Of a stretch of 64,000 bases of DNA, positions 1,006 to 62,053 are shown piece by piece. The stretch is from Cyanobacteria bacterium FACHB-DQ100 (GTDB lineage Bacteria; Cyanobacteriota; Cyanobacteriia; Leptolyngbyales; Leptolyngbyaceae), in the NCBI GenBank assembly GCA_014695195.1, contig JACJNW010000022.1:62001-126000 (forward strand), given 5' to 3'. How positions within the stretch are numbered: the first letter of the stretch is position 1; each line of letters opens with the position of its first letter. The notes below the pieces were generated by a model, which was given only the letters and a program-made list of their open reading frames with translations, had not been told where the DNA came from and made no database searches. The position numbers and the translations under genes were made by a program.

Positions 1006-1113
1006 GGGAACTCTTTGTCGATCGACTGCAAGTTCTAAGCCTACCGCAAACGGTTGAAAAGAAGGGATGAAGCTCAGATTAATTTTTCATCCCAGTAAAG
1101 AGACTCGCCGGAA

Positions 1114-1344
1114 TTAGCCGAACGAAGTAAAGGTTCTGACGAAGTACCCTAGTCCAGCTCCTAACACAAATGCCCAAACCTGACCGGTTCTGACAAAGTG
1201 ATTCCAGCTTTTGCCGACATTCCCAGCAATATCGGTTTGCTTGAATTCCTGAGCCAGAATGTTGACATCGATCGATTGCACAACATCGCTCAGATGAAGG
1301 GTGTGATCGAACCAGGTGGATAGATCTAAAACAAGATGAATCAT
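1114..1344 (-). CDS. Small conserved-looking protein of unknown function
   Basis: A 76-residue protein if it starts at the ATG at 1344; a GTG at 1377 would add 11 residues. It begins MIHLVLDLSTWFDHTLHL and ends in a hydrophobic, glycine-rich segment (VWAFVLGAGLGYFVRT) that could be one membrane helix. I do not recognise a family. It sits alone between argH and the response regulator gene, all three leftward. Base composition matches its neighbours. Whether it is truly translated is not proved by the sequence; there is no clear ribosome binding site. Confidence 0.5.
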   Translation of the reverse strand: MIHLVLDLSTWFDHTLHLSDVVQSIDVNILAQEFKQTDIAGNVGKSWNHFVRTGQVWAFVLGAGLGYFVRTFTSFG

Positions 1345-1418
1345 GTGATTGTGCCGTGATTGGTTTGCTTTCAGCACAGTCTTATCACAGGAATCAAGTT
1401 AGAGAGTCCGAGAAAATG

Positions 1419-2123
1419 CTAGTTCAGAAGCGGCATTACTGAGGTCGCGATGATCGCCGCCTGCGTACGATCGCGTAGATTCAAACGCCCTAAAATGCTG
1501 GCGACGTGGTTTTTCACGGTTCCTTCTGAGATTTCGAGCGATTGGGCAATTTCCCGGTTGCTCGATCCTTCTGCGATCAGTCTTAACACTTGGCGCTCAC
1601 GAGCAGTCAGCTTAGCAAATCCAGGCGGTAAGCTAGGAGCAGGAGTACGCCGCTGGGACGGCATAAACGGCAGAACGTTCGTCATTGATGGTTCGGGACT
1701 GGTTTCTTCGATCGGCGGAGCAAGCACTTTCTGCAAAATTCCGGGACTGAGTTGAGTAAAGCCTCTGTGTGCAGTCCGAACGGCATTGGCTAACTCGTCA
1801 GGCGACATATCCTTGAGCAAATAGCCCCGCGCTCCAACTCGCAAAGCGGTTCGGACTGAGGCTTCATCATCAGTAGCGGTCAGAACTAAAACGCGGGTTT
1901 TTGGGCAGCGCTCACAAATGGCTTGAGTTGCAGTGATGCCGTCCATTTTTGGCATTTTCAAATCCATCAGCACCACATCTGGCTGGAGGGCTTCCGTTTG
2001 CTCTACCGCATCGCAACCGTTGTCTACATCTGCTACAACTTGCAGATCAGGCTCCTGCTCTAGAAGCGCTTTCAATCCTTCTCGAATGAGGTTTTGATCA
2101 TCGGCTAACAATACGCGAATCAT
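1419..2123 (-). CDS. Two-component response regulator, NarL/LuxR type
   Basis: A 234-residue cytosolic DNA-binding regulator. The receiver domain (about 1-120) has the acidic pair D8-D9, the phosphoacceptor D54 in VLMDLKMP, the Thr of LVLTATDDE and the Lys of YLLKD. After a Pro-rich linker (about 135-165) comes a LuxR-type helix-turn-helix (about 168-230), LTARERQVLRLIAEG followed by SEGTVKNHVASIL. This is the NarL/FixJ architecture, normally paired with a histidine kinase; no kinase gene is next to it, so it is an orphan here and its signal and targets cannot be inferred. Start ATG at 2123. Confidence 0.93.
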   Translation of the reverse strand: MIRVLLADDQNLIREGLKALLEQEPDLQVVADVDNGCDAVEQTEALQPDVVLMDLKMPKMDGITATQAICERCPKTRVLVLTATDDEASVRTALRVGARGYLLKDMSPDELANAVRTAHRGFTQLSPGILQKVLAPPIEETSPEPSMTNVLPFMPSQRRTPAPSLPPGFAKLTARERQVLRLIAEGSSNREIAQSLEISEGTVKNHVASILGRLNLRDRTQAAIIATSVMPLLN

Positions 2124-2364
2124 ACAGTGCTTTCCTCTTCTCAGAGATGAAGTTTAGGAATGGGGGCGATCGAAAAACTCCTGAACGCAATGAACTCGAA
2201 ATACAGTAACTGTTGAGGAAGTTGTTTTTGATAGTTTGTAAAACATCATCAAAATATTTTTTCGTTTTTATAGAAATAAATCAAGCCCTTTGTGACAGAA
2301 ATTTACCAAATTGGAGAAGAAGTCAGTATGCTGAAAGACTAGAAAAAATGGCACTGAAGTTGTG

Positions 2365-3846
2365 ATGCGAAAGACTGAGCAACCCGTCAAGCCGATCTCC
2401 TGGTTTCGGCTTGGAATCCTTGGAATATTTCTTGTGTCGCTGGGTCTGCGATTCTGGGGACTCGGACGATTTAATACACTCGTTTTTGACGAAGTTTACT
2501 ATGCAAAATTCGCGAATAACTACTTAACTGGGACAAGATTCTTCGATGGTCATCCGCCGTTAAGCAAATACTTGATCGCAATCGGAATCTGGATTGGAAA
2601 TCGTCTTCCGATCGGTCAAGACACTGTAAACAATTTGGCAGGCTCAACTTTAAGTACCTGGAGTTATCGCTGGCTTAATGCGTTAACAGGTTCCTTTATT
2701 CCGCTAGTTATTTCTGTGATCGCATACCAACTCAGCCAACGTCGTAGCTATGCTCTGATTGCCGGAATTCTTGCCGCGATGGATGGTCTATTCCTGGTTG
2801 AGTCACGCTACGCCCTGAATAATGTCTACCTTATATTGTTCGGATTGTTGGGACAATGGTTCTTGTTATTAAGTTTACGATCGCCAAAAAAATTGAATTG
2901 GTTTCTCGTTGGATCTGGAGTATTTTTTGCTGCCTCTGCTTCAATCAAATGGAACGGATTATGGTTCTTGATGAGTGCTTATTTTCTGTGGGGATTAGGT
3001 TGGTTATTTCGCCTGCTTAATTGGATGAGTCAGCGATCACAACGATTCACAGAAGTCTCTAATCATCCATTACCAACTTCACCGTTGTATCGAATTACGC
3101 AGATTAATTTGTTCTCTTTTTTACTCTGTTTTGCAGGTATTCCAGCGCTGTTTTATTGGTTAATTTGGCTACCTCATATTTATCTAAATCCTGAATTTGA
3201 CTTTATCGAAGTTCAGAGGCAGATTTTGTCTTACCATCAGCGCGTGGGTAGCGGCATGAATATTCATCCTTACTGCTCAACTTGGTACAGTTGGATACTA
3301 ATGCTTCGCCCAGTTGCGTATTTTTATCAAGTTGCAAATTCACCGACTGCTCCAATTCCAAACGGAAGTTCTGCACTAATTCTTCAGCCTGGACGGGTGG
3401 TTTACGATGTTCATGCAATTGGAAATCCAGCGCTATGGTGGTTTTCTTCAGTGGCGATCGTATTTCTCATTTGGATACTTGTCGAACACTGGCACATCTT
3501 GCCAACTCTGGTTACGGCTCAAGCTCCCAAGCTAGGCTATTTGCCGCCTCAAGAGTTATGGATTGTGCTGTTTCTAATGACTGGGTATGTAGCGAATTTA
3601 CTGCCCTGGATGCCTGTATCGCGCTGTGTGTTTCTGTATCACTACATGGGATCATCCATTTATGCCGCGATGGGACTGGCTTGGCTGATCGATCGCTGGC
3701 TTCGCAAGCGCGAATCTCGTGCGCTCGGAATTGGCGTAATCATGCTTTGTGCGATCGCGTTTGTGTTTTGGATGCCGATTTATCTGGGCTTGCCATTGTC
3801 GCAATCAGAATATGAGATGCGGATGTGGCTGAGATCGTGGATTTAA
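2365..3846 (+). CDS. Dolichyl-phosphate-mannose--protein mannosyltransferase family (GT39/PMT) membrane protein
   Basis: A large polytopic membrane protein of about 493 residues with roughly ten hydrophobic segments. The loop after the first helix contains FDEVYYAKFANNYL and then DGHPPLSKYL, the DE-Y and HPP features of the PMT/GT39 glycosyltransferases that use a polyprenyl-phosphate sugar donor on the outer face of the cytoplasmic membrane. Bacterial members O-glycosylate exported proteins or modify lipids; which applies here is unknown. A GTG codon directly before the ATG is an alternative start. It is divergent from the response regulator gene and is followed by a strong hairpin. Confidence 0.83.
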   Translation: MRKTEQPVKPISWFRLGILGIFLVSLGLRFWGLGRFNTLVFDEVYYAKFANNYLTGTRFFDGHPPLSKYLIAIGIWIGNRLPIGQDTVNNLAGSTLSTWSYRWLNALTGSFIPLVISVIAYQLSQRRSYALIAGILAAMDGLFLVESRYALNNVYLILFGLLGQWFLLLSLRSPKKLNWFLVGSGVFFAASASIKWNGLWFLMSAYFLWGLGWLFRLLNWMSQRSQRFTEVSNHPLPTSPLYRITQINLFSFLLCFAGIPALFYWLIWLPHIYLNPEFDFIEVQRQILSYHQRVGSGMNIHPYCSTWYSWILMLRPVAYFYQVANSPTAPIPNGSSALILQPGRVVYDVHAIGNPALWWFSSVAIVFLIWILVEHWHILPTLVTAQAPKLGYLPPQELWIVLFLMTGYVANLLPWMPVSRCVFLYHYMGSSIYAAMGLAWLIDRWLRKRESRALGIGVIMLCAIAFVFWMPIYLGLPLSQSEYEMRMWLRSWI

Positions 3847-3863
3847 CGACTCTGAAATAAACG

Positions 3864-3891
3864 AAACGGGTTCCATTGAATGAAACCCGTT
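3864..3891. terminator. Hairpin between convergent genes
   Basis: An 8-bp stem AACGGGTT/AACCCGTT with a 12-base interior lies between the PMT-family gene and the convergent coiled-coil gene. It could serve both transcripts; neither side has a long T run, so it is a moderate terminator call. Confidence 0.6.
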
Positions 3892-3917
3892 GAACTTATC
3901 CCGATTTTGCTGAGGCT

Positions 3918-4772
3918 CTATTTGATCTTGCTATCTTCGATGTCAATTTGAGTGGGGGGCAATTTTGGTGCGTCTTCTGTCCTATTAGAAGACTTCGATC
4001 GCGCCTCTCCCGCTTCTCTCACCATATCGGTTGCTTGTTTTAGCAAGTCTTTGAGCATTTTTCGCACTTGCCGTTCCCGTTGTGCCAGAGCAACTCCCGC
4101 TTCTCCAATTTGTCGATCGAGGTCTGCCATCTTTTGATCCGCTTGGGTCTTTGCGGATTCGGCTTGTGGTCGGGCTTGGTCGTACCACTCTTTTGCTTCG
4201 TTCAGATGAGCTTGAGCGCGATCGTGATAATCCTCGCTGCGTGCAGCCAGGTTTGCCCGCAGAATGGCTAACTGTGCCTGCACTTGAGCATAGCGTTTCT
4301 TTAACAAACCCGCCTCCTCGCTGTTGCGAATCGTCTCGATCGTCGTCTCGATCTGTTCCCGAACTTCAACAGACATATCTCGTGCGGCTTCCTTCAGCCC
4401 TTCCATGCCCGCTTCGACTTGTTGCTCTAGTTCGTCTTCTTGTTCACTGAGTTGAGTCTGTAGCCGCTTCACTTCTGCTTCAGTTTCAGCAATACGCTGT
4501 TGACGAGCGCGACTAATTCCTTCGACGACTCCTTCAACCGAAGCGGTGATGTCTTCTTTGATATGTGTCCCGCCTTCTTGCAAGCTTGTTGCTGCACTAG
4601 AAAACGCATCCTTGACGATCGACCGAATATCTCCGGTTCCTGCTTTCAATTCGGAAGTGATTTGGTCGATCGCGCTTCGCATAATTTCTCGAATGCGATC
4701 GGTGCGGAGCTGTCCCACTTCTTTTGCTTGCTTCAGGTCAGATGAGATTTTCTCTTTGACAGAATTAGCCAT
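3918..4772 (-). CDS. Long coiled-coil protein of unknown function
   Basis: A 284-residue, highly charged, almost wholly helical protein with no signal peptide or membrane segment. Heptad-like patterns rich in Glu, Gln, Lys and Ala run from about residue 85 to 250 (for example EAEVKRLQTQLSEQEDELEQ). The last 30 residues are probably disordered and end in DIEDSKIK. I recognise no enzyme motif. The look is that of cyanobacterial conserved proteins of unknown role, perhaps structural or scaffold-like, but that is inference from composition only. Start ATG at 4772. It is monocistronic, converging on the PMT gene. Confidence 0.72.
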   Translation of the reverse strand: MANSVKEKISSDLKQAKEVGQLRTDRIREIMRSAIDQITSELKAGTGDIRSIVKDAFSSAATSLQEGGTHIKEDITASVEGVVEGISRARQQRIAETEAEVKRLQTQLSEQEDELEQQVEAGMEGLKEAARDMSVEVREQIETTIETIRNSEEAGLLKKRYAQVQAQLAILRANLAARSEDYHDRAQAHLNEAKEWYDQARPQAESAKTQADQKMADLDRQIGEAGVALAQRERQVRKMLKDLLKQATDMVREAGEARSKSSNRTEDAPKLPPTQIDIEDSKIK

Positions 4773-4861
4773 ATGAATCCTCTAATTAAAACCTTATTAT
4801 TTCTTCCTCTAGTCTGACGTAGGATTTCTTTAACATCCTCTTTCTTAAGGTTAATAAGAAA

Positions 4862-4886
4862 AGCTCCTGATAAAATACCAGGAGCT
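4862..4886 (-). terminator. Intrinsic terminator of the small exported protein gene
   Basis: Perfect 8-bp stem AGCTCCTG/CAGGAGCT followed, in the leftward direction, by TTTTCTTATT. It lies about 75 bases beyond the stop codon of the gene at 4960-5487, which fits a rho-independent terminator for that gene. Confidence 0.78.
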
Positions 4887-4959
4887 AAGCTTTGAATTAG
4901 ATGACCTTAAGCTTCAACAAAACGCTAAGCAAATTGTGTTCAGATTGCAATTCAGGAAA

Positions 4960-5487
4960 CTAGAATCGCAGACCTACACCACCAACAATGCTCAGTGAAC
5001 CATTGCCGCTTCCTTGATAAGCGTTGATGCCATATTTCGCATCGCTATAAACAACAACGCCTTTTGCAACTTCTGATTCAACACCTGCTGAAATAACGGC
5101 AGAATCTTTGTTGCCAATTTGAGAAGTTTGACCGTCTTTTTGCACAAAACCGTAGCCAGCACCTAGATAGACGTTCGTGTTTCTAGAAACAGGAAGATCA
5201 TAGGTCAGCGAAGGAATAACCGCGCTGTTGTCGCCGTTGAACATAACGGAACCACGAACAGAAACAGGCGCATTTGGAATTGCAAATCGACCTTGAATGT
5301 TTCCACCAAATACTGCTTCGTCATTACTGACTCCGCCGCTGGTCACACTACCGCCAACCCCAGCTCCAACATAGCTTCCGTCGAAGCGAACAGATTGGGC
5401 AGAAGCAGAACCTGCGAAGAACAAAGGAGACAAAGCAAGGGCAGAAAGAGCAGAAAGAGTTGCTACCGATTTGAGAGAGAGTTTCAT
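4960..5487 (-). CDS. Exported small protein, probable outer-membrane beta-barrel
   Basis: A 175-residue protein. It starts MKLSLKSVATLSALSALAL and has a clear Sec signal peptide ending at GSASA-QS. The mature part is rich in Gly, Ser and Val, with alternating hydrophobic residues and a final aromatic VGGVGLRF, a pattern often seen in outer-membrane barrels. I therefore infer, without naming a family, a small porin-like or OmpA-like barrel in the outer membrane. The open frame extends upstream to 5730, but the ATG at 5487 is chosen because AGGA lies 8 bases before it and the signal peptide begins there. Confidence 0.75.
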   Translation of the reverse strand: MKLSLKSVATLSALSALALSPLFFAGSASAQSVRFDGSYVGAGVGGSVTSGGVSNDEAVFGGNIQGRFAIPNAPVSVRGSVMFNGDNSAVIPSLTYDLPVSRNTNVYLGAGYGFVQKDGQTSQIGNKDSAVISAGVESEVAKGVVVYSDAKYGINAYQGSGNGSLSIVGGVGLRF

Positions 5488-6214
5488 AACTTTTCCTAGC
5501 GTGACGAAGAACTTTAGTTGAGGTTTATTGCCTTCAATTCTTACTTTCAATGTCGTAAGAAGTGCTTGATGTGTTCCCAGAGTTTCAGAGGTTTTTGAAT
5601 TGGTTAGGAATTCTATATCTTTAGAAATAGTTCCAGCTTGATCAGTCAAAAACTTGAGATTACTTCTGGAAGAACCAGCAATAAATCGCATTGGTTTCTC
5701 ATATCTCTGGTATATCTTGCAGGATTTCAAATCATCTTAAACGATGGTCTGTTCTATAAGTGTCACATCATAAATGTTGTCATTTCTCTCTCTTTTAAAA
5801 CAACAAAAAAGAGGCATTCCTTGCAATTTTGTAAAAGAAAATGCCTCTAAAAAAATGATTTTTAGGCGTGAAAATTAGCGTTAAAGTTCGGTTTTCCGTC
5901 TCGTTAAATCAAGAAGTATCTAACCCAAAAGGCTGAGAATAACTACACATTATTAACTAGAATTTTCGGAAGCAATATCTTTTAGGTTTCCGAAAGAGGT
6001 CATTTGTAAAGAGCGCGGCTATAGTCATCCTAATCAGTTGTGAAATGGGGCGTGGGGTGTCGTTTCTTTTTCAACCCCCTACTCCTTTTAGCGTTCACAA
6101 CTCAAACAGGGTCGCTACACAATTTATAGATGCAGCAGCAGAATCAAAAGTTCCGAGCCGATCGCTCTGCAAAATAAAGGGACTTTTCGCTGACATGAAA
6201 CTACGGCGTGAATT
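5488..6214. other. Long AT-rich intergenic region with two hairpins
   Basis: No convincing protein gene in 727 bases. It holds the promoter of the exported protein gene (leftward), a terminator-like hairpin at 5810-5848 and a second stem at 5964-5995 (TTTCGGAA/TTCCGAAA). The part next to 6060-6100 contains a C-rich tract related to the TACTCCC-type repeats seen at 51.0 and 59.4 kb. The terminator has no obvious gene just upstream of it on its strand. Confidence 0.6.
5804..5848 (-). terminator. Orphan intrinsic terminator, leftward
   Basis: A perfect 9-bp stem AGAGGCATT/AATGCCTCT with a 21-base loop is followed leftward by TTTTTTGTTG. It would stop a leftward transcript arising between 5850 and 6214, or the long 3' end of the glycosyltransferase mRNA. 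Confidence 0.65.
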
Positions 6215-12374: not shown

Positions 12375-12713
12375 TCAAAAACACTGTCCTGCAATTCCAA
12401 TGGTCTGAACTTCTGTATCTATGAACTTTGTACGATAGATGCTGAGCAACAGATGATTTTTGCGGTAGGTATGCAATGAAGTTCCTGAAGCAGTCACAGC
12501 ATTTGGTAGAGATATAATCACCGAACAAAACATTCCAGCCACTGATTTCTGTTCACAAATCTTGTTCTTGAGCTTTTCGGCAGCGTAATGACTACACGCC
12601 TCTTGGTCGGGATTTGTGAGTCCTAATACTGTTAGCACTACTAATCCAGCAGCAATATAAATTCCCCCGGGGCGATTGGGAGGTGAAGATTGCGGTACAA
12701 ACATCTGAGCCAT
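12375..12713 (-). CDS. DUF4359 family protein
   Basis: A 112-residue protein with one hydrophobic helix near the N-terminus (about 17-33, GIYIAAGLVVLTVLGLT) followed by TNPDQEACSHYAAEKL and, at the C-terminus, LLLSIYRTKFID ... QTIGIAGQCF. This TNP-start and SIYRT pattern is what I recall of DUF4359, a cyanobacterial family of unknown function, probably anchored in a membrane with its domain outside. AGGAGG lies 9 bases before the ATG at 12713. It is last in a leftward operon behind the small membrane protein and the broken gene. Confidence 0.72.
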   Translation of the reverse strand: MAQMFVPQSSPPNRPGGIYIAAGLVVLTVLGLTNPDQEACSHYAAEKLKNKICEQKSVAGMFCSVIISLPNAVTASGTSLHTYRKNHLLLSIYRTKFIDTEVQTIGIAGQCF

Positions 12714-12738: not shown

Positions 12739-12900
12739 TTAGCGGCGTGAAGAGTTACGGCGAGACTTTGAACGGTTGCGAACAGTCGATCGCGGTATCC
12801 GGGGAGGCTGGAGTCTAATCGGGGTTGAATGATGCCAAGCAACTACAAGCCAAAGCGCGATCGCGATTCCTAGACTGAAGCCCAATAGTAAAGCGGTCAT
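12739..12900 (-). CDS. Small single-helix membrane protein
   Basis: A 53-residue protein, MTALLLGFSLGIAIALWLVVA, then a strongly basic tail (RSKSRRNSSRR). Its ATG overlaps the TGA of the preceding reading frame (positions 12897-12900, ATGA), the usual sign of translational coupling in an operon. That preceding gene is broken in this strain. Topology is probably N-out, C-in by the positive-inside rule. Function unknown; the coupling suggests it works with the large product. Confidence 0.6.
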   Translation of the reverse strand: MTALLLGFSLGIAIALWLVVAWHHSTPIRLQPPRIPRSTVRNRSKSRRNSSRR

Positions 12901-13213
12901 GAGAGTTCCTGCACTGCGATCGTATTGTTGCGCCACCAATCCAATCGCTTCCATAGGTCACGATCGATGTCCTCGCTGAGATAAGCGGCAATCTCTGTTT
13001 CGAGCGGATCGAGCGGTGTAATTGCTTCTTGACGCACCGAGCGCAAGTGATGGAGGCGATCGTAGATTTGTGCAGGATAGGCTTGATAAAGACAGTTAAA
13101 GTGACTGATCAGATCGACTAAGCATTGATAGCCAATTCTGCTGCAAAGCAGCTTGCGACTATCTTCTAGAGAAATAGTGTGTTGCGCCGCCTTAATAACA
13201 TAGCGATAACTTA
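12897..13213 (-). pseudogene. C-terminal part of a gene broken by the IS element
   Basis: An open frame with no start of its own, reading SYRYVIKAAQHTISLEDSRK and ending DWWRNNTIAVQELS, about 104 residues. It stops within the ATGA overlap with the small membrane protein gene. If the IS element and one copy of the TTA duplication are removed, this frame is in register with the 426-codon frame at 14545-15825, separated from it only by one TGA codon and eight sense codons. I therefore read both as one decayed gene. No family recognised. Confidence 0.78.
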
Positions 13214-14516
13214 GGACTGTAGATTAAATAAAGCCGGAGATTAGACCACTTGTGGTTGAGCAGTATAGTTCCATTGCGGCAGATGCTGATCAAAGACAAT
13301 GCTCATCGTTTGCTTAAAGTCCTCTGCGACTTTTCGACCCGTCTGATAGACTTTATCGACAACGTTGACCACCACCGACAATCCGGTTTGTGTTTTGGCT
13401 CTTTCCATCAAGTCTTTCACCAGGTCCACGCTTTCAAAAATCACGCCTTGACACGCGCGTGTGAGATGGGGGAACAATCGATGTTCAATGGGGTTGTACT
13501 TGGAAGTATAGGGTGGATAGTGAGCAATCCGAATCTCAACGCCTAGCTCGTTGACTAACGCTTGTAAGTCCTGCTTGAACAGGTATTGGCGAGAGCTATT
13601 ACTACCACCTCCATCACACAGCAGCAGGATGGATGTCGCAGTCGGATAGTGATGCCGCCCATGCTCTTGCCACCAATGGCGAATGGCATCACAAGCAAAT
13701 TCAGCCGTGTCATGACTTGTGCCAATTTGAAGGTAGCCTGTATTGCGTTGAAGATCATACAACCCATGGGGAATGGCAACACCCGTCGCAAGTGACTTCC
13801 AATCTTGATCAAATACAGCAATCGCTTCATCTTGAGTGTAAACTCGACCTGCACGATAGAGTTGCCCAATTAGTTCTCTTTTTTTGTATCCATACTCAAC
13901 ATCGGATGACCTGCTGCTTCATAGCGCGAGCGAATCGCTTCAATGTTCTCAAACTGAGCATTGCGCTCCGGATGCGCTCCGGTCGCTAATCGTTTTTGAG
14001 CTTTGCGTTTGCGATAGTGGTGCTTTTCTAAAAGTTGATCCACCACGGTCACACTAATCGAAATGCCTTCTGCTTGCATTAACTGTGCAATCTCCTGACG
14101 AGTGAGATGCGTCCACTTGATCGTTTCGCTCATCGGCGACCCTGCTGTATATTGAGCAATCACCTTCAGAAATGTCTCATCTAATCCAGGGTGTGTTTCA
14201 AAGGCTGATTTACGCCCACCTCCGGCACGACGAACGCGGCTTTGATGCAACTGAGTGTCATCTTGAAGTTCTCGCTTGCCCAATTGCATCGCTTCGTCAT
14301 CACAGCCGAAGAGTTGGCTGATATAGCTCAATCCACCTCGCCCTAATTTTAGGGCTTCGACTGCTGCATACCTGCGTCGGTCTTTCTCCGATAACGACTG
14401 GTAGAAGCGTCGCATTTGTTGTTCAACTTCAGGCGGATAGGACTGCATCGATTCACCAGGTCAATCTGAATTGCTCTAGCCTATCATTTACTCCGGTCTT
14501 ATTTAATCCTTGATCC
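13214..14516 (-). mobile_element. ISAzo13-family insertion sequence, 1303 bp
   Basis: Bounded by imperfect inverted repeats of about 27 bp: left GGACTGTAGATTAAATAA at 13214, right end read inward GGATCAAGGATTAAATAA from 14516, both continuing into a CCGGAG block. A 3-bp direct duplication TTA flanks it (13211-13213 and 14517-14519), in keeping with a family that makes 3-bp or no duplications. The single transposase gene is read leftward, in two frames. It is inserted into an unknown gene transcribed in the same direction. Confidence 0.85.
13241..14448 (-). CDS. ISAzo13-family transposase, read in two frames with a -1 shift
   Basis: DDE transposase of about 402 residues. The first frame (14448 to 13870) has the N-terminal DNA-binding part and ends just after the first catalytic Asp in MLSMDTKKEN. 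The second frame continues KRELIGQLYRAGRVYT, with the second Asp in LLLCDGGGSNSSR and the Glu in TSKYNPIEHRL. The join is at a run of seven A (13879-13885 on the opposite strand), where a -1 slip restores DTKKREL. This may be programmed frameshifting or a disabling 1-base change; the sequence alone cannot decide. Confidence 0.85.
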
Positions 14517-14544
14517 TTAGATGGAGTTGAATGCGTCCTAAAAT

Positions 14545-15825
14545 TCAAGCGTAAATCACAGCAATTTCAGCTTGCTCGATCGTGAGATCTTGTCCGGGAA
14601 AAGGCAGATTCCGCGCTCCAACGATCGGATGAAACTTCTCAAAATATGTTGCCTCAGCAATTTGGTGATAGTTCTGAACTGCGATCGGATAGTGCGCCCA
14701 ATGACTATAAGGCAATACGGCTCGATACTGAAGAAAGATAATCTTATTCGGGTCGCCTGTGTCGATGTCTTGATACCCTCGTTCTCGGCTACTGTACCAA
14801 TTGAGTAACTGCGGTACATTTCTTTGATGAGCTTTATCGATTCCAAGTAAGCGAATCACAAATGTCCCATTCTCTTGGTCACAGCTTCCTTTGAGTTCAA
14901 TAAACTCGAAGGATTGTCGATCGAGCTGTTTTAGCACTCTGCCTAACTCTGTCTCTTGTGGAAATCGGTGATAAAGCTCTGTCACAACGTGCAATCCAGA
15001 AAGCTGCGGCTGCAAGGTAGCTTCAGCTTGCAGTAGCAATTGAGTTTTGAACGCGATCGGATCAGCAAGGAAAGGCAGCAATTGAGACTGATTGAGCAGT
15101 GGATTGATCAATCGTTCGATCGCGCAAGCTTCTCCCGCTTCTGGCAAAATGCGCTGATATCCTCGGCTTAAGTCTGATTCTGTCTCATGAAGACAGAGAC
15201 CATTGGGGCATTCAAACTCAGGACGATAATGAATGAGGTGCTGTTGCTCAAAGGTGAGTGGTGTTCGCAAGTCTGCAATTGATCGCTCTGCTTGTTCGAT
15301 TCGATTGAGCAACTGACTGACAATCTGTTGCAGTTGCGCTAAGGTTTCAACGCTAGCAAGATGAGCCGCTCTAGAAATCACAGCCGAATAGTATCGATTG
15401 AAAGCATTGCTTCGCGCTGAGTTCCAGGGTTGTAGCTGTGATGCAATCTCTTGTTCGATTTGGGCGCTACGGAATCGATAGAATGGTGCTTGTCGTTTCC
15501 GTTCAATCTCCTCTAAACACTCTGGTACTTGTGTTGCAAATAAATCTAGGCACTCTTGGTATTGATTCACCTGATCATCAAATCGCACAATGTCTTCGCC
15601 TGCTTGGGTTTGAATGCGATCGAGCCATTTCAACAATTGCTCTAGAAACTGTCGAATTGCACAAAGCCCTGATGTTCGGAGTTTAATCGCCTCGGATAAG
15701 GATGTCGATAAAGACCAGGAAAGCCCAGTTCGCAGAAAGGCATGTTCATGACCGACTGAGAAAATATCATGTCCTCGATGAATTCTCACAAAGTAACTTT
15801 CATCCCTTCTGTTATCTGCTATCAA
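14545..15825 (-). pseudogene. N-terminal and middle part of the IS-broken gene, unknown function
   Basis: A 426-codon frame with no canonical strong start (TTG at 15825 or a GTG a little further in) that ends EIAVIYA and a TGA. Read through the TGA, it continues ILGRIQLHL and then into the fragment beyond the IS. Its own sequence is helix-rich to about residue 190 (many QxxL repeats), then mixed alpha/beta with CPNGLCLHE, and ends with LPYSHWAHYPIAVQNYHQI. I recognise no family. The first 40 codons overlap the opposite-strand gene at 15702, so the true N-terminus may also be missing. Confidence 0.6.
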
Positions 15826-16964
15826 AAATTAATGCTCATCGCGCCAAGCTATACATTTTTGCGTCTGTATCCGTACCTAGTGACGGTCGCCAGTGGGATA
15901 ACCTCACTCTACCGATTCGACTGCTGGAGAAGGCGCGGATATATGCGGCTCAGGATGGTGCAACATCAGAATACAGCTATTGGTCTGCCTACCAGAGCTG
16001 GTGCTATCTTATGCTGGCATATCTACGCGATAGTAACCACCCTAGTTCCTCTTCTAAGCTTGCCTCGATCACCTTTCAAGAATGCACAGATTGGGCGCGT
16101 CGATTGATTGATCATGCGCTGATTTGTTACTCTTCGCTCGGTCAGCAATGCTATCAGACGATCAAAGACAACGGTGGGAGAGTGACAAAACATAAACGAA
16201 AGACCAAGACTGGGCTGAAATACTATGAAGAGTATGGCAACGTTCAGATACAGATGTTGCCTTTTATCGAAGAAAGTAAAGCTCAAGATGAAGAAAACGA
16301 GCCAAACAAGGATTCACGCATTCTTCGGCTTGATTTATCGTTGCTTAAAATAGAGCGCGAAGTCTGGCTGGGCAATAGAGATATGATTCATCTACTAGGC
16401 ACTCATTCGGCACTGTTGTTGTTTCCAATGGGAATGCTGGAACTCTGCGAGGAGCGAGATCAACCCGCACAGCTTAAGAAGAAGGTACGAAAAGCGGAAA
16501 AGCTATTTACTTATGCTTGGGCAACCGCCGGTGATGGGGTTTTGCCTGAGCTTGAGGGCGATCGCTTGTATCTCGATCGTAAGCTAGAACTTGATGATCC
16601 AATCCTGGATCGAGAAGCGCTAATTCAAGGTTTATATCCACACCGATTAACGCAGTTTGCTGACTTGGGTAAGGTGTTTGCTGCGGTTTGCAAAGTTCTA
16701 CTGCTACCGGAGAATCCTGAAGAGGCTGAGACCCAATGGAAGCAGATTTGGTATCTTCTAGATGCGTTGCATGGTGGAGAACATAGTGGCCCTGAGACGA
16801 TTCTGGAGCAGCGGCGCTACAATGGGCACCTTTCGACGCATTTCAAAAATATCCGCAATTATTTTCATCTGTTAAAGAACACTCCGCTTGAGGGCAGTAT
16901 GATTGAAAGGCGCGATCGCATCATCAAGCAAGTATTTCAATACACCCTGGGGCGCAACGAATAA
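15702..16964 (+). CDS. Unknown helical protein upstream of the Ser/Thr kinase
   Basis: A 420-residue frame, mostly helical, with runs such as LPIRLLEKARIYAAQDG and LKKKVRKAEKLFTYAWAT that look like TPR-type or armadillo-type helix pairs, though no repeat unit is clear. A charged, probably flexible loop lies at about 160-205. No signal or membrane segment. No family recognised. The ATG at 15702 makes its start overlap the opposite frame by 124 bases; protein-like sequence becomes convincing only from about residue 46 (NAHRAKLYIFASV), so the start may be artificial or the gene 5'-truncated. The kinase gene follows by 33 bases. Confidence 0.6.
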   Translation: MSIKTRKAQFAERHVHDRLRKYHVLDEFSQSNFHPFCYLLSKINAHRAKLYIFASVSVPSDGRQWDNLTLPIRLLEKARIYAAQDGATSEYSYWSAYQSWCYLMLAYLRDSNHPSSSSKLASITFQECTDWARRLIDHALICYSSLGQQCYQTIKDNGGRVTKHKRKTKTGLKYYEEYGNVQIQMLPFIEESKAQDEENEPNKDSRILRLDLSLLKIEREVWLGNRDMIHLLGTHSALLLFPMGMLELCEERDQPAQLKKKVRKAEKLFTYAWATAGDGVLPELEGDRLYLDRKLELDDPILDREALIQGLYPHRLTQFADLGKVFAAVCKVLLLPENPEEAETQWKQIWYLLDALHGGEHSGPETILEQRRYNGHLSTHFKNIRNYFHLLKNTPLEGSMIERRDRIIKQVFQYTLGRNE

Positions 16965-16997
16965 GCTATCGGCAATGAATAAGCTATTGATAGTGCA

Positions 16998-18380
16998 ATG
17001 GATCAACTGATTGGAAAAGTTCTACACGATCGTTATCAGATTCAATCACTGCTGAGTCGTCAGACTGGGCGCAGAACATTTTTAGCGACTGATTTACAAA
17101 CCGCGGCATCGGTGGTGATCAAGCTATTATTGTTTGCGCCCGATTTTACTTGGGATGATTTGAAGCTATTTGAGCGGGAGGCAGCCGTTTTACAAGCGAT
17201 CGATCATCCCGCCATTCCTCGATATCTCGATGGCTTTGAGACTGAGACGGGGTTTGCTATTGTTCAGACTTACATCGAAGCTCGATCGCTGCAAGATTGG
17301 GTACAGTCCGGGCGCACGTTTAGCGAAGCGGAACTAAAAGCGATCTCTAAAGAACTATTAAACATTCTGGACTATCTACACAGCCGCCAGCCTTCAGTTG
17401 TACACCGCGATTTGAAGCCGAGTAACATTCTATTGAGCGATCGTACCGGAAATAGTCCCGGACAGGTTTATCTGATTGATTTTGGTTCTGTGCAAACGGC
17501 GCTTCAGGCTGGAACACGTACAATTGTTGGGACTTACGGCTATATGCCACCGGAGCAGTTCGGCGGGCAGACTGTTCCGGCTTCGGATCTTTATGCTTTG
17601 GGTGCAACGCTGATCTATCTTGCAACCGGACAGCATCCGGATCAATTACCGCAGCGTGAATTAAGGATTTTGTTTGACGATCGCGTGACTCTCAGTCCTG
17701 CATTCGTGGACTGGCTGAAATGGTTAACGGAACCCAGCTTAGATTTAAGAGCGCGATCGGCACAGCAAGCCTTACAAGCATTAGAAACCTCGCAACAAAA
17801 CAGTCGCTTAGCGATCGCGAAACCAACCGGAAGCAAAGTTCAAGTCAGGCAGTCTCGGCAGCAGCTAGAAATTTTAATTCCAGCGCGGGGATTTCATGCC
17901 GGACTGATTCCGCTGATCGGATTTGCAATTGTATGGAATTCGTTTCTAGTGGTGTGGTACAGCGGCGCAGTTGCGATTTGGGCTTCTGGAGGATGGGTGA
18001 TGGCATTATTTGCGCTCGGTCATCTCAGCGCGGGTATGTGGATGATTTGGCGCATCTTGTTTGATTGGTTTGGCAAAGTTAGATTGCAAATTACCGACTC
18101 GAAGATTTCTCGCAGGATGGAGCTACTGGGAATACATACCTCTCCGACGATCGGCGATCGACAAGACATCAAACAAATTGAGCTGACCAGTGTTTCGCAC
18201 AAGTCCGATAGTGAAGGTGGAACAATTAGGATTCCACCCCAAATTAACATTTGGGCAGGTACAAAGAAGTTCTCCTTGGGAGGTGGAGACAATATTACCG
18301 AATATTTGACTCCTCCAGAATTAGACTGGCTTGTACAAGTGTTAAGCAAGTGGTTAAATCTACCGATTAAGAAGAACTGA
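16998..18380 (+). CDS. Eukaryotic-type Ser/Thr protein kinase, membrane-anchored
   Basis: A 460-residue protein. The kinase domain (about 10-265) has VVIK (Lys42), HRDLKPSN (136-143) and DFGSV (161-165), then GTYGYMPPEQ as activation-loop/APE region. The glycine-rich loop is weak (LLSRQTGRRTFLA). After a linker, two hydrophobic segments at about 297-350 anchor it, with a further C-terminal domain of about 110 residues that I do not recognise. It is preceded by the unknown helical protein gene by 33 bases and is probably co-transcribed with it. Substrates unknown. Confidence 0.9.
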   Translation: MDQLIGKVLHDRYQIQSLLSRQTGRRTFLATDLQTAASVVIKLLLFAPDFTWDDLKLFEREAAVLQAIDHPAIPRYLDGFETETGFAIVQTYIEARSLQDWVQSGRTFSEAELKAISKELLNILDYLHSRQPSVVHRDLKPSNILLSDRTGNSPGQVYLIDFGSVQTALQAGTRTIVGTYGYMPPEQFGGQTVPASDLYALGATLIYLATGQHPDQLPQRELRILFDDRVTLSPAFVDWLKWLTEPSLDLRARSAQQALQALETSQQNSRLAIAKPTGSKVQVRQSRQQLEILIPARGFHAGLIPLIGFAIVWNSFLVVWYSGAVAIWASGGWVMALFALGHLSAGMWMIWRILFDWFGKVRLQITDSKISRRMELLGIHTSPTIGDRQDIKQIELTSVSHKSDSEGGTIRIPPQINIWAGTKKFSLGGGDNITEYLTPPELDWLVQVLSKWLNLPIKKN

Positions 18381-18567
18381 CCTTGCCGTTTTCTCAACCG
18401 TTTTCTAATTGAGTTGCCAATTGTCTTGAGTTGCCGTCGCACGGTTTCCAGGGTATCCATCTCTTCCGATCGATCGTGACTGAACCAGGACGGGTAGAAG
18501 TCGGGTAATTCATCGATGTTGCTTGAGAAATTTCCTTGATCTAGTGGCTGAAACTATCCTGCCACCT

Positions 18568-18609
18568 GTGGGGATTTAGGGGGTACAAGCTGCCGACAAC
18601 GAAGCGAAA
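18568..18609. repeat. Half-copy of the C/G-run dispersed repeat
   Basis: TGTGGGGATTTAGGGGG followed by ACAAGCTGCCGACAACGAAGCGA. The second part matches the tails at 40450 (AGAAGCTGACCGCAACGCAGCGA) and 42756 (TGAAGCCGACAGCAACGAAGC), so this is a diverged member of the same family, lacking the opposite arm. Confidence 0.65.
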
Positions 18610-18634
18610 ATTCCCAACCCACTCCAAACAACAA

Positions 18635-18662
18635 AGCAGAAACCCCGATCGGGGTTTCTGCT
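18635..18662 (-). terminator. Perfect 28-base palindrome, terminator of the ferredoxin gene
   Basis: AGCAGAAACCCC-GATC-GGGGTTTCTGCT, a 12-bp stem, 54 bases downstream of the ferredoxin stop codon. It has no good T run in either direction, but is the only termination signal between the convergent kinase and ferredoxin genes. Confidence 0.68.
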
Positions 18663-18716
18663 GCAAGAACGTTTCAAGACAGAGAGTGAGAAGCGAATCA
18701 TCTCCCTGTCGGAGAA

Positions 18717-19016
18717 TTAATAAAGCGCGTCTTCCTGATGGGTCAGGATCGTGCAGTTCGAGCGCGGGTAAGCCACGCAAGTCAGCACATATCCAGCTTC
18801 AATCTGGTCATCATCCAAGAACGATTGATCGGATTGATCGATTTCACCTTCAGTGATTTTGCCTGCACAAGTCGAGCAAGCACCCGCACGACAGGAGTAC
18901 GGCAAATCCAGACCTGCTTCTTCAGCCGCATCTAGAATGTACTCATCATCGGGAACCTCGATCGTCGTGTCCAGCCCTTCGGCTTCGTTGATTAACCTGA
19001 CCTGGTAAGTAGGCAT
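18717..19016 (-). CDS. petF: Plant-type [2Fe-2S] ferredoxin
   Basis: A 99-residue soluble electron carrier that takes electrons from photosystem I and passes them to FNR and other reductases. The cluster ligands are in [11 protein letters not shown] (CX4CX2C, about residues 42-50) and LTCVAYP (about 80). The ending HQEDALY is the classical C-terminus of photosynthetic ferredoxins. GAGG precedes the ATG at 19016. It is monocistronic with a 255-base upstream region. Cyanobacteria usually carry several such genes; the close match to the major type suggests petF, but this cannot be proved from one gene. Confidence 0.95.
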
Positions 19017-19271
19017 TCGGTGATCCTCTCTAGTAATAGAAGCGGCAAAACTGCCGGAAAATTTGAGACTTAAGTTTTCTCAATCAATGCTGAGATGCCT
19101 AAGTTCTTTTCAATTCTGATACTACGGGAAAACTTAAACGTTAAATCCGCGATTTAGGGGGATCGATGAACGCGATTCCTAATAAATCAGCATGATTTAA
19201 TCTACTTATACTTATAGGACGATCTATCGGGCGCAATCGAGAGTTACAATCCGTTACCCTAATCATTTGCG

Positions 19272-20222
19272 TTAGCGATTTTCCCCAAATCTATCGGTAG
19301 CATCGACTAAGGCACTAAGAATTCCTGTCTCCATCATCGAGTGCCCTGCATCGGGAACGACGATAAATTCTGCCTTGGGTAGCGCCTGGTGTAAATCCCA
19401 AGCTGAAGCCATCGGACAAACGACATCGTAGCGTCCTTGCACAACTACGGTGGGAATGTGAGCGATACGATCGCAGTTTTGCAGCAGTTGATCATCGGTT
19501 TCAAAAAAGCCGCGATTGATAAAGTAGTGACACTCAATTCGCGCAAACGCTTCTGCAAAGTCATCTTGAGCAAACTTACTCTGCAAGTTTGGATCAACAA
19601 TTAATCGGCTGGTACTGCCTTCCCAAACTGACCAGGCTTTTGCGGCGATCGCCCGAATTTCTGCATCATCGCTGGTCAACCGTCGGTAATACGCCGAAAC
19701 CATATCGTCGCGTTCTTCGGGTGGAATGGGCGCGAGATACTGCTCCCAAGCATCGGGAAAAATCCAGCTTGCGCCTTCTTGATAGAACCAAAGGATCTCT
19801 TTACGCCGGAGTAAGAAGATGCCGCGCAGGATTAAGCCAAGACAGCGATTGGGATGCGTTTGGCTATAGGCGAGCGATAAAGTGCTGCCCCAACTGCCGC
19901 CAAAGACGACCCAGCGATCGATTTGGAGGTGCGATCGGAGTTTCTCAATGTCACCGACGAGATCCCAGGTTGTGTTTTCCCTCAGTTCAGCGTGGGGCGT
20001 GCTTTTTCCGGCTCCGCGCTGATCAAACAGGATAATCCGCCATTTCTCCGGGTCGAAATACTGTCGATAGATTGAAATGGTGCCGCCGCCAGGCCCACCG
20101 TGCAGAAAGACAACAGGTTTTCCGTTGGGGTTGCCGCTCTGCTCGTAGTAGATCGTATGCAGGTCGGAGACGGGCAGCATCCCCGACTGGTAAGGCTCGA
20201 TCGCAGGATAAAGATGACGCAT
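19272..20222 (-). CDS. pip: Prolyl aminopeptidase (proline iminopeptidase)
   Basis: A 316-residue alpha/beta hydrolase that removes N-terminal proline from peptides. HGGPGGG (about 40-46) forms the oxyanion-hole motif, GGSWGSTLSL (about 108-117) holds the nucleophilic Ser, DVVCP near 265 holds the catalytic Asp, and DAGHSMME near 295 the His. This agrees with peptidase family S33 Pip in both length and motifs. Cytosolic; no signal peptide. The start MRHLYPAIEPYQSGMLPVSD is the usual family N-terminus. Confidence 0.95.
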   Translation of the reverse strand: MRHLYPAIEPYQSGMLPVSDLHTIYYEQSGNPNGKPVVFLHGGPGGGTISIYRQYFDPEKWRIILFDQRGAGKSTPHAELRENTTWDLVGDIEKLRSHLQIDRWVVFGGSWGSTLSLAYSQTHPNRCLGLILRGIFLLRRKEILWFYQEGASWIFPDAWEQYLAPIPPEERDDMVSAYYRRLTSDDAEIRAIAAKAWSVWEGSTSRLIVDPNLQSKFAQDDFAEAFARIECHYFINRGFFETDDQLLQNCDRIAHIPTVVVQGRYDVVCPMASAWDLHQALPKAEFIVVPDAGHSMMETGILSALVDATDRFGENR

Positions 20223-61018: not shown

Positions 61019-62053
61019 ATGACACTAAACCGAACGCTTACTTATCAAATTGGCGCGATCGTGATGGCGCTTGTGGTGACGATGATCATCATTTTGCTTG
61101 CAGGAGCATCGCCGATCGCAGTATTTACTGAGATTGTTTCGGGTGCATTTGGCACACCCGGGCAGTTTGCGCGAGTGATTGCAACCTTAGCACCCCTATT
61201 GATTATTTCCTGTGGACTGCTGTTTACCTTTACTGCTGGATTGTACAACTTAGGGATTGAAGGACAAATCGCGTTTGGCGGCATTGCCACAACGTTTATG
61301 CTGCGGCTGACACAAGATAGCTTTCCGCCGGCGATCGCCCTGACTTTAGCAATTTTGGCGGGTGGAGTCGGTGGAATGCTCTGGGGAGTGTTTGCAGGCG
61401 TTCTAAATATCTATGGACGGATCAACGAAATCTTTGCAGGATTGGGGTTGAACTTTCTTGCCGATGGCTTGGCGCTGTATTTGGTGTTTGGCCCTTGGAA
61501 GCGTCCGGGGGTAGCTTCAATGAGTGGAACGGAACAATTTCCAGAATCATTATGGCTGCCAACTTTTGGAAATACGGATGCAAGCCCGATCGCTCTGTTG
61601 ATTGCACTGTTGGCGATCGCGACGACGATCGTCGTTCTTGGTAGAACACGCTTTGGTTTGAAGCTTCGAGCGGTCGGACAAAATCTTCGCGCCTCTTATG
61701 TGTTGGGCATTCCCTCGGTGCGTCAGCTTCTAAGTTCATTTGCAATCTGTGGAGCCTTTGCCGGGATCGCCGGGGCGCTGCAAGTGGTGGCAGTGTTTCA
61801 CCGATTGATTCCGAACATTTCGAGTGGATTGGGATTTCTGGCGCTGTTGGTGACGCTGCTCACGGGAATGAATGCTTGGTTATTGTTGCCGATCGCGTTC
61901 TTCTTTAGTGCGCTGAATATTGGAAGTTTGCAGCTTCCATTGGATCTGAATTTAGAATCCTCATTGGCAGGTGTAATTCAAGGAACCCTAGTGCTGTTTG
62001 TGATTTTGGGTAAGGGCTTGAGCGAGTGGAAGCGCGGGACGGTAGCCCGATGA
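61019..62053 (+). CDS. ABC transporter permease (BPD_transp_2, nucleoside type)
   Basis: A 344-residue inner-membrane protein with about ten hydrophobic segments, e.g. TYQIGAIVMALVVTMIIILL, and TAGLYNLGIEGQIAFGGIAT, KLRAVGQNLRASYVLGIPSV (coupling loop) and ALLVTLLTGMN. This is the larger permease (YufP/NupP-like) of the BMP transporter. Such systems usually encode a second permease (YufQ-like) directly after; here the next gene is convergent, on the other strand, so only one is present locally. Start ATG at 61019 follows GGAACC. Confidence 0.92.
   Translation: MTLNRTLTYQIGAIVMALVVTMIIILLAGASPIAVFTEIVSGAFGTPGQFARVIATLAPLLIISCGLLFTFTAGLYNLGIEGQIAFGGIATTFMLRLTQDSFPPAIALTLAILAGGVGGMLWGVFAGVLNIYGRINEIFAGLGLNFLADGLALYLVFGPWKRPGVASMSGTEQFPESLWLPTFGNTDASPIALLIALLAIATTIVVLGRTRFGLKLRAVGQNLRASYVLGIPSVRQLLSSFAICGAFAGIAGALQVVAVFHRLIPNISSGLGFLALLVTLLTGMNAWLLLPIAFFFSALNIGSLQLPLDLNLESSLAGVIQGTLVLFVILGKGLSEWKRGTVAR

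Follow-up and report, generated by a model that had tools for sequence, protein, structure and literature searches.

In the window, the 64,000-nucleotide stretch analysed here (positions 62,001 to 126,000 of contig JACJNW010000022.1 of Cyanobacteria bacterium FACHB-DQ100), we found what we read, with a probability of about 0.9, as the recently decayed remnant of an operon. The operon encoded a large, divergent protein of the FtsZl1 (Pfam Tubulin_2) kind, was transcribed away from a 1093-codon gene, and carries four lesions relative to its sister locus: two deletions, one nonsense codon and one insertion sequence (IS). The uncharacterised protein family of the divergent 1093-codon gene is labelled P1093 below.

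The locus lies on a 272-kb contig of a 5.5-Mb draft genome in 44 contigs. All lesions were defined against L004, the corresponding locus of the same-genus "Cyanobacteria bacterium FACHB-63" (G007, contig JACJNX010000077.1), which was the one genome of the same genus carrying the gene among 57 other genomes drawn as relatives. It is the single known intact relative. Class-wide searches covered 388 genomes including the window's own (387 others), and family-level searches covered 42 (41 others).

When the window was aligned with L004, collinear blocks of 90-93% identity were found, with two losses of ~4.8 kb together (Table 1). About 480 N-terminal codons of the tubulin-like gene are absent, the upstream 381-codon gene is missing as a whole, and the P1093 gene lacks codons 1-206 and about 228-683. 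The deleted N-terminal half held the sole domain of the tubulin-like gene above a Pfam cut-off, so that the window copy differs from FtsZl1 proteins in being without the entire Tubulin_2 domain. Perhaps the two deletions were one complex event. We take the short state of the window to be derived because all 28 surveyed P1093 loci have a frame of at least 1067 codons and because the N-terminus of the FACHB-63 protein is a complete Tubulin_2 domain. A point against this polarity is that it comes from a chosen set, some of the omitted P1093 loci being in pieces or cut by contig ends.

The preliminary description had proposed one large gene broken by a stop codon and an IS. Both of these lesions were confirmed, but the two deletions had been overlooked and the original gene had 967 codons. 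The 1303-bp element with its TTA duplication was recovered at the boundaries given in Table 1. With the element removed, the closed site runs in frame for 345 nucleotides from the single TGA (14545-14547) to the terminal stop, as had been claimed, and reads AVIYA, stop, ILGRIQLHLSYRYVIKAAQ... No gap is needed to align it with FACHB-63, where the IS-free site matches at 72 of 84 bases and represents the empty site expected in a related strain. FACHB-63 has TGG where the window has TGA, in agreement with the suggested point change, and its intact gene continues through this tryptophan instead of ending there. The terminal TGA overlaps the start of the next small gene (ATGA) in both genomes, again as described, and the C-terminal fragment in the window ends one codon later than the FACHB-63 gene. 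Upstream of the element, positions 14521-15670 are 92.5% identical to L004 8997-10146 without a gap. We infer that the remnant gives no working protein.

Table 1. Features of the decayed locus and its neighbours (positions in the window)
Feature	Position	Strand	Basis
DUF4359 protein, 112 amino acids, intact	12375..12713	-	Pfam E 1.2e-08, 35.9 bits, cut-off 27
Small protein, 53 amino acids, one apparent membrane helix (by eye), intact in both genomes	12739..12900	-	start overlaps stop of tubulin-like gene
Tubulin-like gene remnant, C-terminal codons about 864-967, beyond the IS	12897..13213	-	alignment, codon comparison
Target duplication TTA, left copy	13211..13213		empty-site closure
ISAzo13-type insertion sequence, 1303 bp	13214..14516	-	two transposase frames (14448-13870; 13762-13241)
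Target duplication TTA, right copy	14517..14519		empty-site closure
Tubulin-like gene remnant, codons about 480-864 of intact 967, one TGA at codon 855	14520..15670	-	alignment, codon comparison
In-frame TGA; tryptophan codon in FACHB-63	14545..14547	-	codon comparison
Codons 1-52 of the 426-codon frame, outside the gene itself and antisense to pieces of the neighbour	15670..15825	-	alignment with L004
Deletion junction 1: 3468 bp (L004 10147-13614) missing, no microhomology seen	15670..15671		alignment
62-bp island between deletions, codons about 207-227 of divergent 1093-codon gene	15671..15732	+	alignment
Deletion junction 2: 1369 bp (L004 13677-15045) missing, about 1 bp overlap	15732..15733		alignment
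P1093 C-terminal remnant, codons about 684-1093 of 1093	15733..16964	+	alignment, codon comparison
Serine/threonine kinase, intact	16998..18380	+	Pfam match on 95%-identical relative

The gene family had previously been called unknown. The FACHB-63 gene, 967 codons long and without an IS, allowed it to be identified as a divergent Tubulin_2/FtsZl1 relative. Its product, of 967 amino acids (aa), matched Pfam Tubulin_2 with E 8.5e-15 and 55.3 bits (cut-off 27) over residues 9-356 and profile positions 5-355 of 356, and a second Tubulin_2 profile search gave E 1.4e-15. A second profile was built from 25 long, canonical Tubulin_2 proteins encoded at 24 cyanobacterial loci. Compared with it by hhalign, the FACHB-63 protein gave a probability of 99.6 with E 2e-23 over 912 columns, covering residues 1-967, whereas the controls (the 1093-aa, kinase and 381-aa proteins) reached at most 0.1.

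FtsZl1 (Pfam PF13809, Tubulin_2) was treated by Makarova and Koonin in 2010 (PMC2875224). That paper describes proteins of about 1000 aa with an N-terminal FtsZ-like domain, an extended coiled coil and a mostly helical C-terminal domain, encoded near a vWA protein, a protein kinase, a GTPase or an OmpA-like protein. It proposes them as central to membrane-remodelling complexes and mentions a Sulfolobus member broken by a transposon. In PMC3961180 the string FtsZl1 denotes a mutant of ordinary FtsZ. A literature search under the name FtsZl1, with other names not searched fully, returned no experimental study of the family evident by title, and as far as we have seen the function of the group is unsolved. 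The FACHB-63 protein resembles FtsZl1 in its length of 967 aa, its N-terminal tubulin/FtsZ-like domain with putative helical regions behind it, its full-length profile match to cyanobacterial members, the kinase gene nearby and its patchy distribution. It differs in having neither the T1 nor the T4 loop, and no vWA, GTPase or OmpA was recognised among the five L004 proteins scanned.

Several results weigh against a simple assignment to this family. A narrower hidden Markov model (HMM), built from 30 canonical cyanobacterial N-terminal domains, missed the intact protein at E 1e-3. The match of the plain full-length-profile HMM (E 6.1e-16) falls between residues 267 and 800, where the richness in helices can inflate scores. 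Neither nucleotide loop is kept, VGTTPG standing for T1 (GxGGTG) and GGFASG for T4 (GGTGSG), and the intact protein thus carries neither the FtsZl1 signature GGGTG(S/T)G nor the first glycine loop. Both motifs are present in 24 of the 25 canonical frames longer than 800 aa, the 25th having its N-terminus in another frame; the length limit of this count excluded a 310-aa frame (L053 8114-9046) that was caught by the canonical HMM. Structure predictions, made from almost no alignment, were too poor to use (mean pLDDT, the predicted local distance difference test score, 35.0 and 35.7), and helices at residues 428-613 were seen solely in a model of mean pLDDT 35. A sequence search of the PDB with the intact protein gave 0 matches at E 1. 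Taking the profile matches and the degenerate motifs together, we regard the intact protein as a very divergent variant of the FtsZl1/Tubulin_2 kind and as no standard member. Because both nucleotide loops are lost, it probably cycles no GTP in the manner of FtsZ.

Among Pfam and NCBIfam models, VasL (18.1 of 27.3 bits), HBL (18.5 of 29.1) and NheC (24.9 of 420) remained below their cut-offs and were judged chance matches of helical segments. These sub-threshold matches were not accepted as evidence for a secretion or toxin function.

Tubulin_2 was found in 112 of the 388 class genomes, in 105 of them above the cut-off, and the profile search of the window's genome found no Tubulin_2 match left. 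A full-length homologue of the 967-aa protein occurred in one of the 387 other class genomes, the same one as among the 41 others of the family. At a threshold of E 1e-3 the class-wide search picked up seven of the 388 genomes. Genuine matches came from G007 and the window's genome, and the remaining five gave partial ones (22-26% identity, E 1e-4 to 7e-4) that were not counted as homologues. Three of the 42 genomes passed at family level, where G002 and a third match within the window's own genome (contig C32) were equally weak and likewise left uncounted. The protein is thus known from two genomes, in pieces here and intact in FACHB-63, and a further contig scan returned FACHB-63 alone. The new conserved operon that the preliminary description had envisaged was not borne out, since a full-length homologue was found in one other genome and the tubulin-like neighbour in one of the 28 P1093 loci.

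In contrast to the tubulin-like protein, for which plasmid searches gave no match with either the protein or its remnant, P1093 gave one. This homologue is annotated as the hypothetical protein WP_015146215.1 of Pseudanabaena sp. PCC 7367, and its gene is carried by pPSE7367.01, a conjugative plasmid (NC_019690.1 204515-207946, L148). P1093 matches were present in 33 of the 388 class genomes, and the divergent neighbour, with 45% and 43% identity to two cyanobacterial homologues, belongs to this wider cyanobacterial family. No Pfam, NCBIfam or PADLOC model matched it. For the neighbourhood survey of this family, 28 loci were chosen, chiefly those with the strongest matches, and they represent 27 of the 33 genomes; the window's own genome, G137, G188, G226, G253 and G347 were left out, and several of these have matches in pieces. 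The divergent neighbour was a DUF4359 gene in three loci (counting FACHB-63), a small DxSxS protein in three and a tubulin-like gene in FACHB-63 alone, which distinguishes this locus from the others. The small DxSxS protein resembles vWA by eye and has no Pfam match.

In seven of the 28 loci (L102, L105, L106, L107, L108, L114 and L116) a protein of about 70-100 aa is encoded divergently upstream of P1093, and by eye it combines a histidine-rich zinc ribbon with a membrane helix. At one further locus, L047 (G026; 1015-5580 and 13227-19432), the P1093 homologue is flanked as in conflict-type gene islands, by a caspase/HD-CE/Hsp90-associated protein and by frames in which a papain-type protease and a STAND-WD40 protein seem recognisable by eye.

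The surroundings of L047, with its caspase/HD-CE protein and putative STAND-WD40 frame, together with the patchy occurrence of P1093 and its single appearance on a conjugative plasmid, could mean that the intact locus is a defence or other conflict module and not a cytoskeletal one. Such a function would leave the decay itself unaffected. However, PADLOC returned nothing better than E 0.07 for the 967-, 381- or 1093-aa proteins, and the kinase matches many PADLOC kinase models as any kinase would. We therefore consider a conflict module unlikely.

The age of the decay was assessed from the ratio of nonsynonymous to synonymous substitution rates (dN/dS) against FACHB-63. The two tubulin fragments gave 0.164 over 374 codons and 0.127 over 102 codons. 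For the P1093 remnant the ratio was 0.114 over 409 codons, and seven intact neighbours ranged from 0.017 to 0.222. The tubulin fragments contain one stop and no frameshift in the 477 codons compared. In a neutral-drift simulation at 0.12 changes per site, a value of roughly half the dS measured here, chosen on the assumption of equal branches, 7.8 stops appeared on average, and one stop or fewer was seen in 0.4% of 1000 runs; this share was 7.6% at 0.06 and 34% at 0.03 changes per site. The stops are too few for decay along the whole branch, so selection probably maintained the gene during most of the time since the two lineages parted, and the break is recent. The comparison also has sides that speak against this. 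The highest neighbour value (0.222) belongs to the operon's own DUF4359 gene, and the six genes outside the block reach 0.142, a little less than the 0.164 of the larger tubulin fragment. Low ratios would also fit fragments that are still used.

On that account, the helical C-terminal part of the tubulin-like protein and the C-terminal part of P1093 would still be made as separate proteins. The ratios nearly as low as those of intact neighbours, the near absence of stops and frameshifts from the tubulin fragments and the lack of any stop over the 409 P1093 codons compared all agree with it. The transposon nevertheless lies within the tubulin fragment, and both starts have been deleted along with the putative promoter region. 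Recent inactivation accounts for the low ratios just as well, so we hold continued use of the fragments to be very unlikely.

The preliminary description had also treated a 426-codon frame (14545-15825, minus strand) as the 5' part of the gene, with the nonsense codon and the IS as the whole damage. Although this frame is open throughout and joins in frame, its codons 1-52 match antisense pieces of another FACHB-63 gene, and the FACHB-63 tubulin-like gene has about 480 other upstream codons including the Tubulin_2 domain. Given the two deletions and the 62-bp island between them, the first 52 codons are therefore antisense pieces of the divergent gene; the frame is a chimera created by the deletions, and we give almost no credence to it as a true 5' part. 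Equally little credence is due to an assembly artefact behind part of the damage, which a 44-contig draft might invite, since all lesions lie inside the 272-kb contig, one other copy of the IS was found in the genome (partial, 92%) and the TTA duplication is clean.

Our preferred reading, the recently decayed FtsZl1-type operon, comprises the following lesions. Deletions of 3468 and 1369 bp removed the 381-codon gene together with the 5' half of its tubulin-like neighbour and much the greater share of the P1093 5' part, and one nonsense codon and one ISAzo13-type insertion interrupt the remainder of the tubulin-like gene. The original promoter probably stood between the divergent genes, in an intergenic stretch that measures 161 bp in FACHB-63 and is deleted here, and would hence be lost. 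Because this putative promoter region is deleted, the small 53-aa gene and the DUF4359 gene are probably orphaned. The intact protein may have been a membrane-associated scaffold with a degenerate tubulin-type head and long helices, and translational coupling may have tied it to the 53-aa one-helix membrane protein.

In FACHB-63 the genes for the 381-aa, 967-aa, 53-aa and DUF4359 proteins follow each other in this order on one strand; the 1093-aa gene points away from the 381-aa gene, 161 bp separating the two, with the serine/threonine kinase gene on the far side of the 1093-aa gene. The succession of large protein, single-helix protein and DUF4359 that had been proposed as an operon is thus present there, but the large protein is Tubulin_2-like and the 381-aa gene precedes it. 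The 381-aa protein gave a sub-threshold SLH match (16.5 of 20.8 bits). In FACHB-63 the block from DUF4359 to P1093 is located at a synteny break. Similarity to L004 stops at the gene before DUF4359 in L140 (G001) and in L138 (G004, with an extra stretch between), two members of the genus in which several of the upstream genes are retained, and the best relatives of the kinase in G004 and G006 (72-73%) lie more than 1 megabase from the gene preceding DUF4359. A search of the six other genomes of the genus gave no P1093, so the block was either acquired by an ancestor of the two strains or lost from the remaining members of the genus.

Neighbourhoods of canonical Tubulin_2 genes were taken from 24 loci out of the 112 genomes with a match, six of them with a Pfam scan. 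At the thresholds used, none of the 24 contained P1093, DUF4359 or the 381-aa gene. In five of the six scanned loci (L049, L050, L058, L067 and L071; some neighbours scanned) the Tubulin_2 gene adjoins a gene for a periplasmic binding protein (PBP_like_2 or Peripla_BP_6), in place of which L068 has a sub-threshold vWA match. Weak zinc-ribbon matches also occur in two of those five. Broken or misassembled Tubulin_2 genes recur in cyanobacteria, as two or more adjacent pieces in different open frames in G386, G358, G296, G301 and G222.

The IS shows the features of ISAzo13-type elements: both transposase open reading frames match Pfam DDE_Tnp_ISAZ013 (8.6e-67 and 2.6e-24), the termini are related inverted ends, and the short TTA duplication flanks both sides. 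Its transposase is split over two frames, with an A7 run (GATACAAAAAAAGAG) at the join. The same run is common to the partial 92% copy in the window's own genome (L143) and to a 70%-identical relative (L144), which suggests that the transposase may be made by programmed -1 frameshifting.

The window itself is mostly a case of ordinary recent gene loss in an unusual relative of a known group. The main value lies in the intact FACHB-63 locus, where a tubulin-superfamily protein without nucleotide loops stands beside the large family P1093. FACHB-63 and, until recently, the present strain might represent a new branch of the vWA/FtsZl1-type membrane systems, in which a loop-less tubulin-like protein would act as a pure scaffold together with P1093. 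Since either vWA-like DxSxS proteins (3/28) or DUF4359 (3/28) stand divergent to P1093, this family may form the fixed centre of a membrane system that is modular and is gained and lost rapidly; the odds are against this whole proposal, and we offer it as tentative. The natural series, intact in FACHB-63, gutted here and not found in six other genomes of the genus, gives a handle on the purpose of the system.

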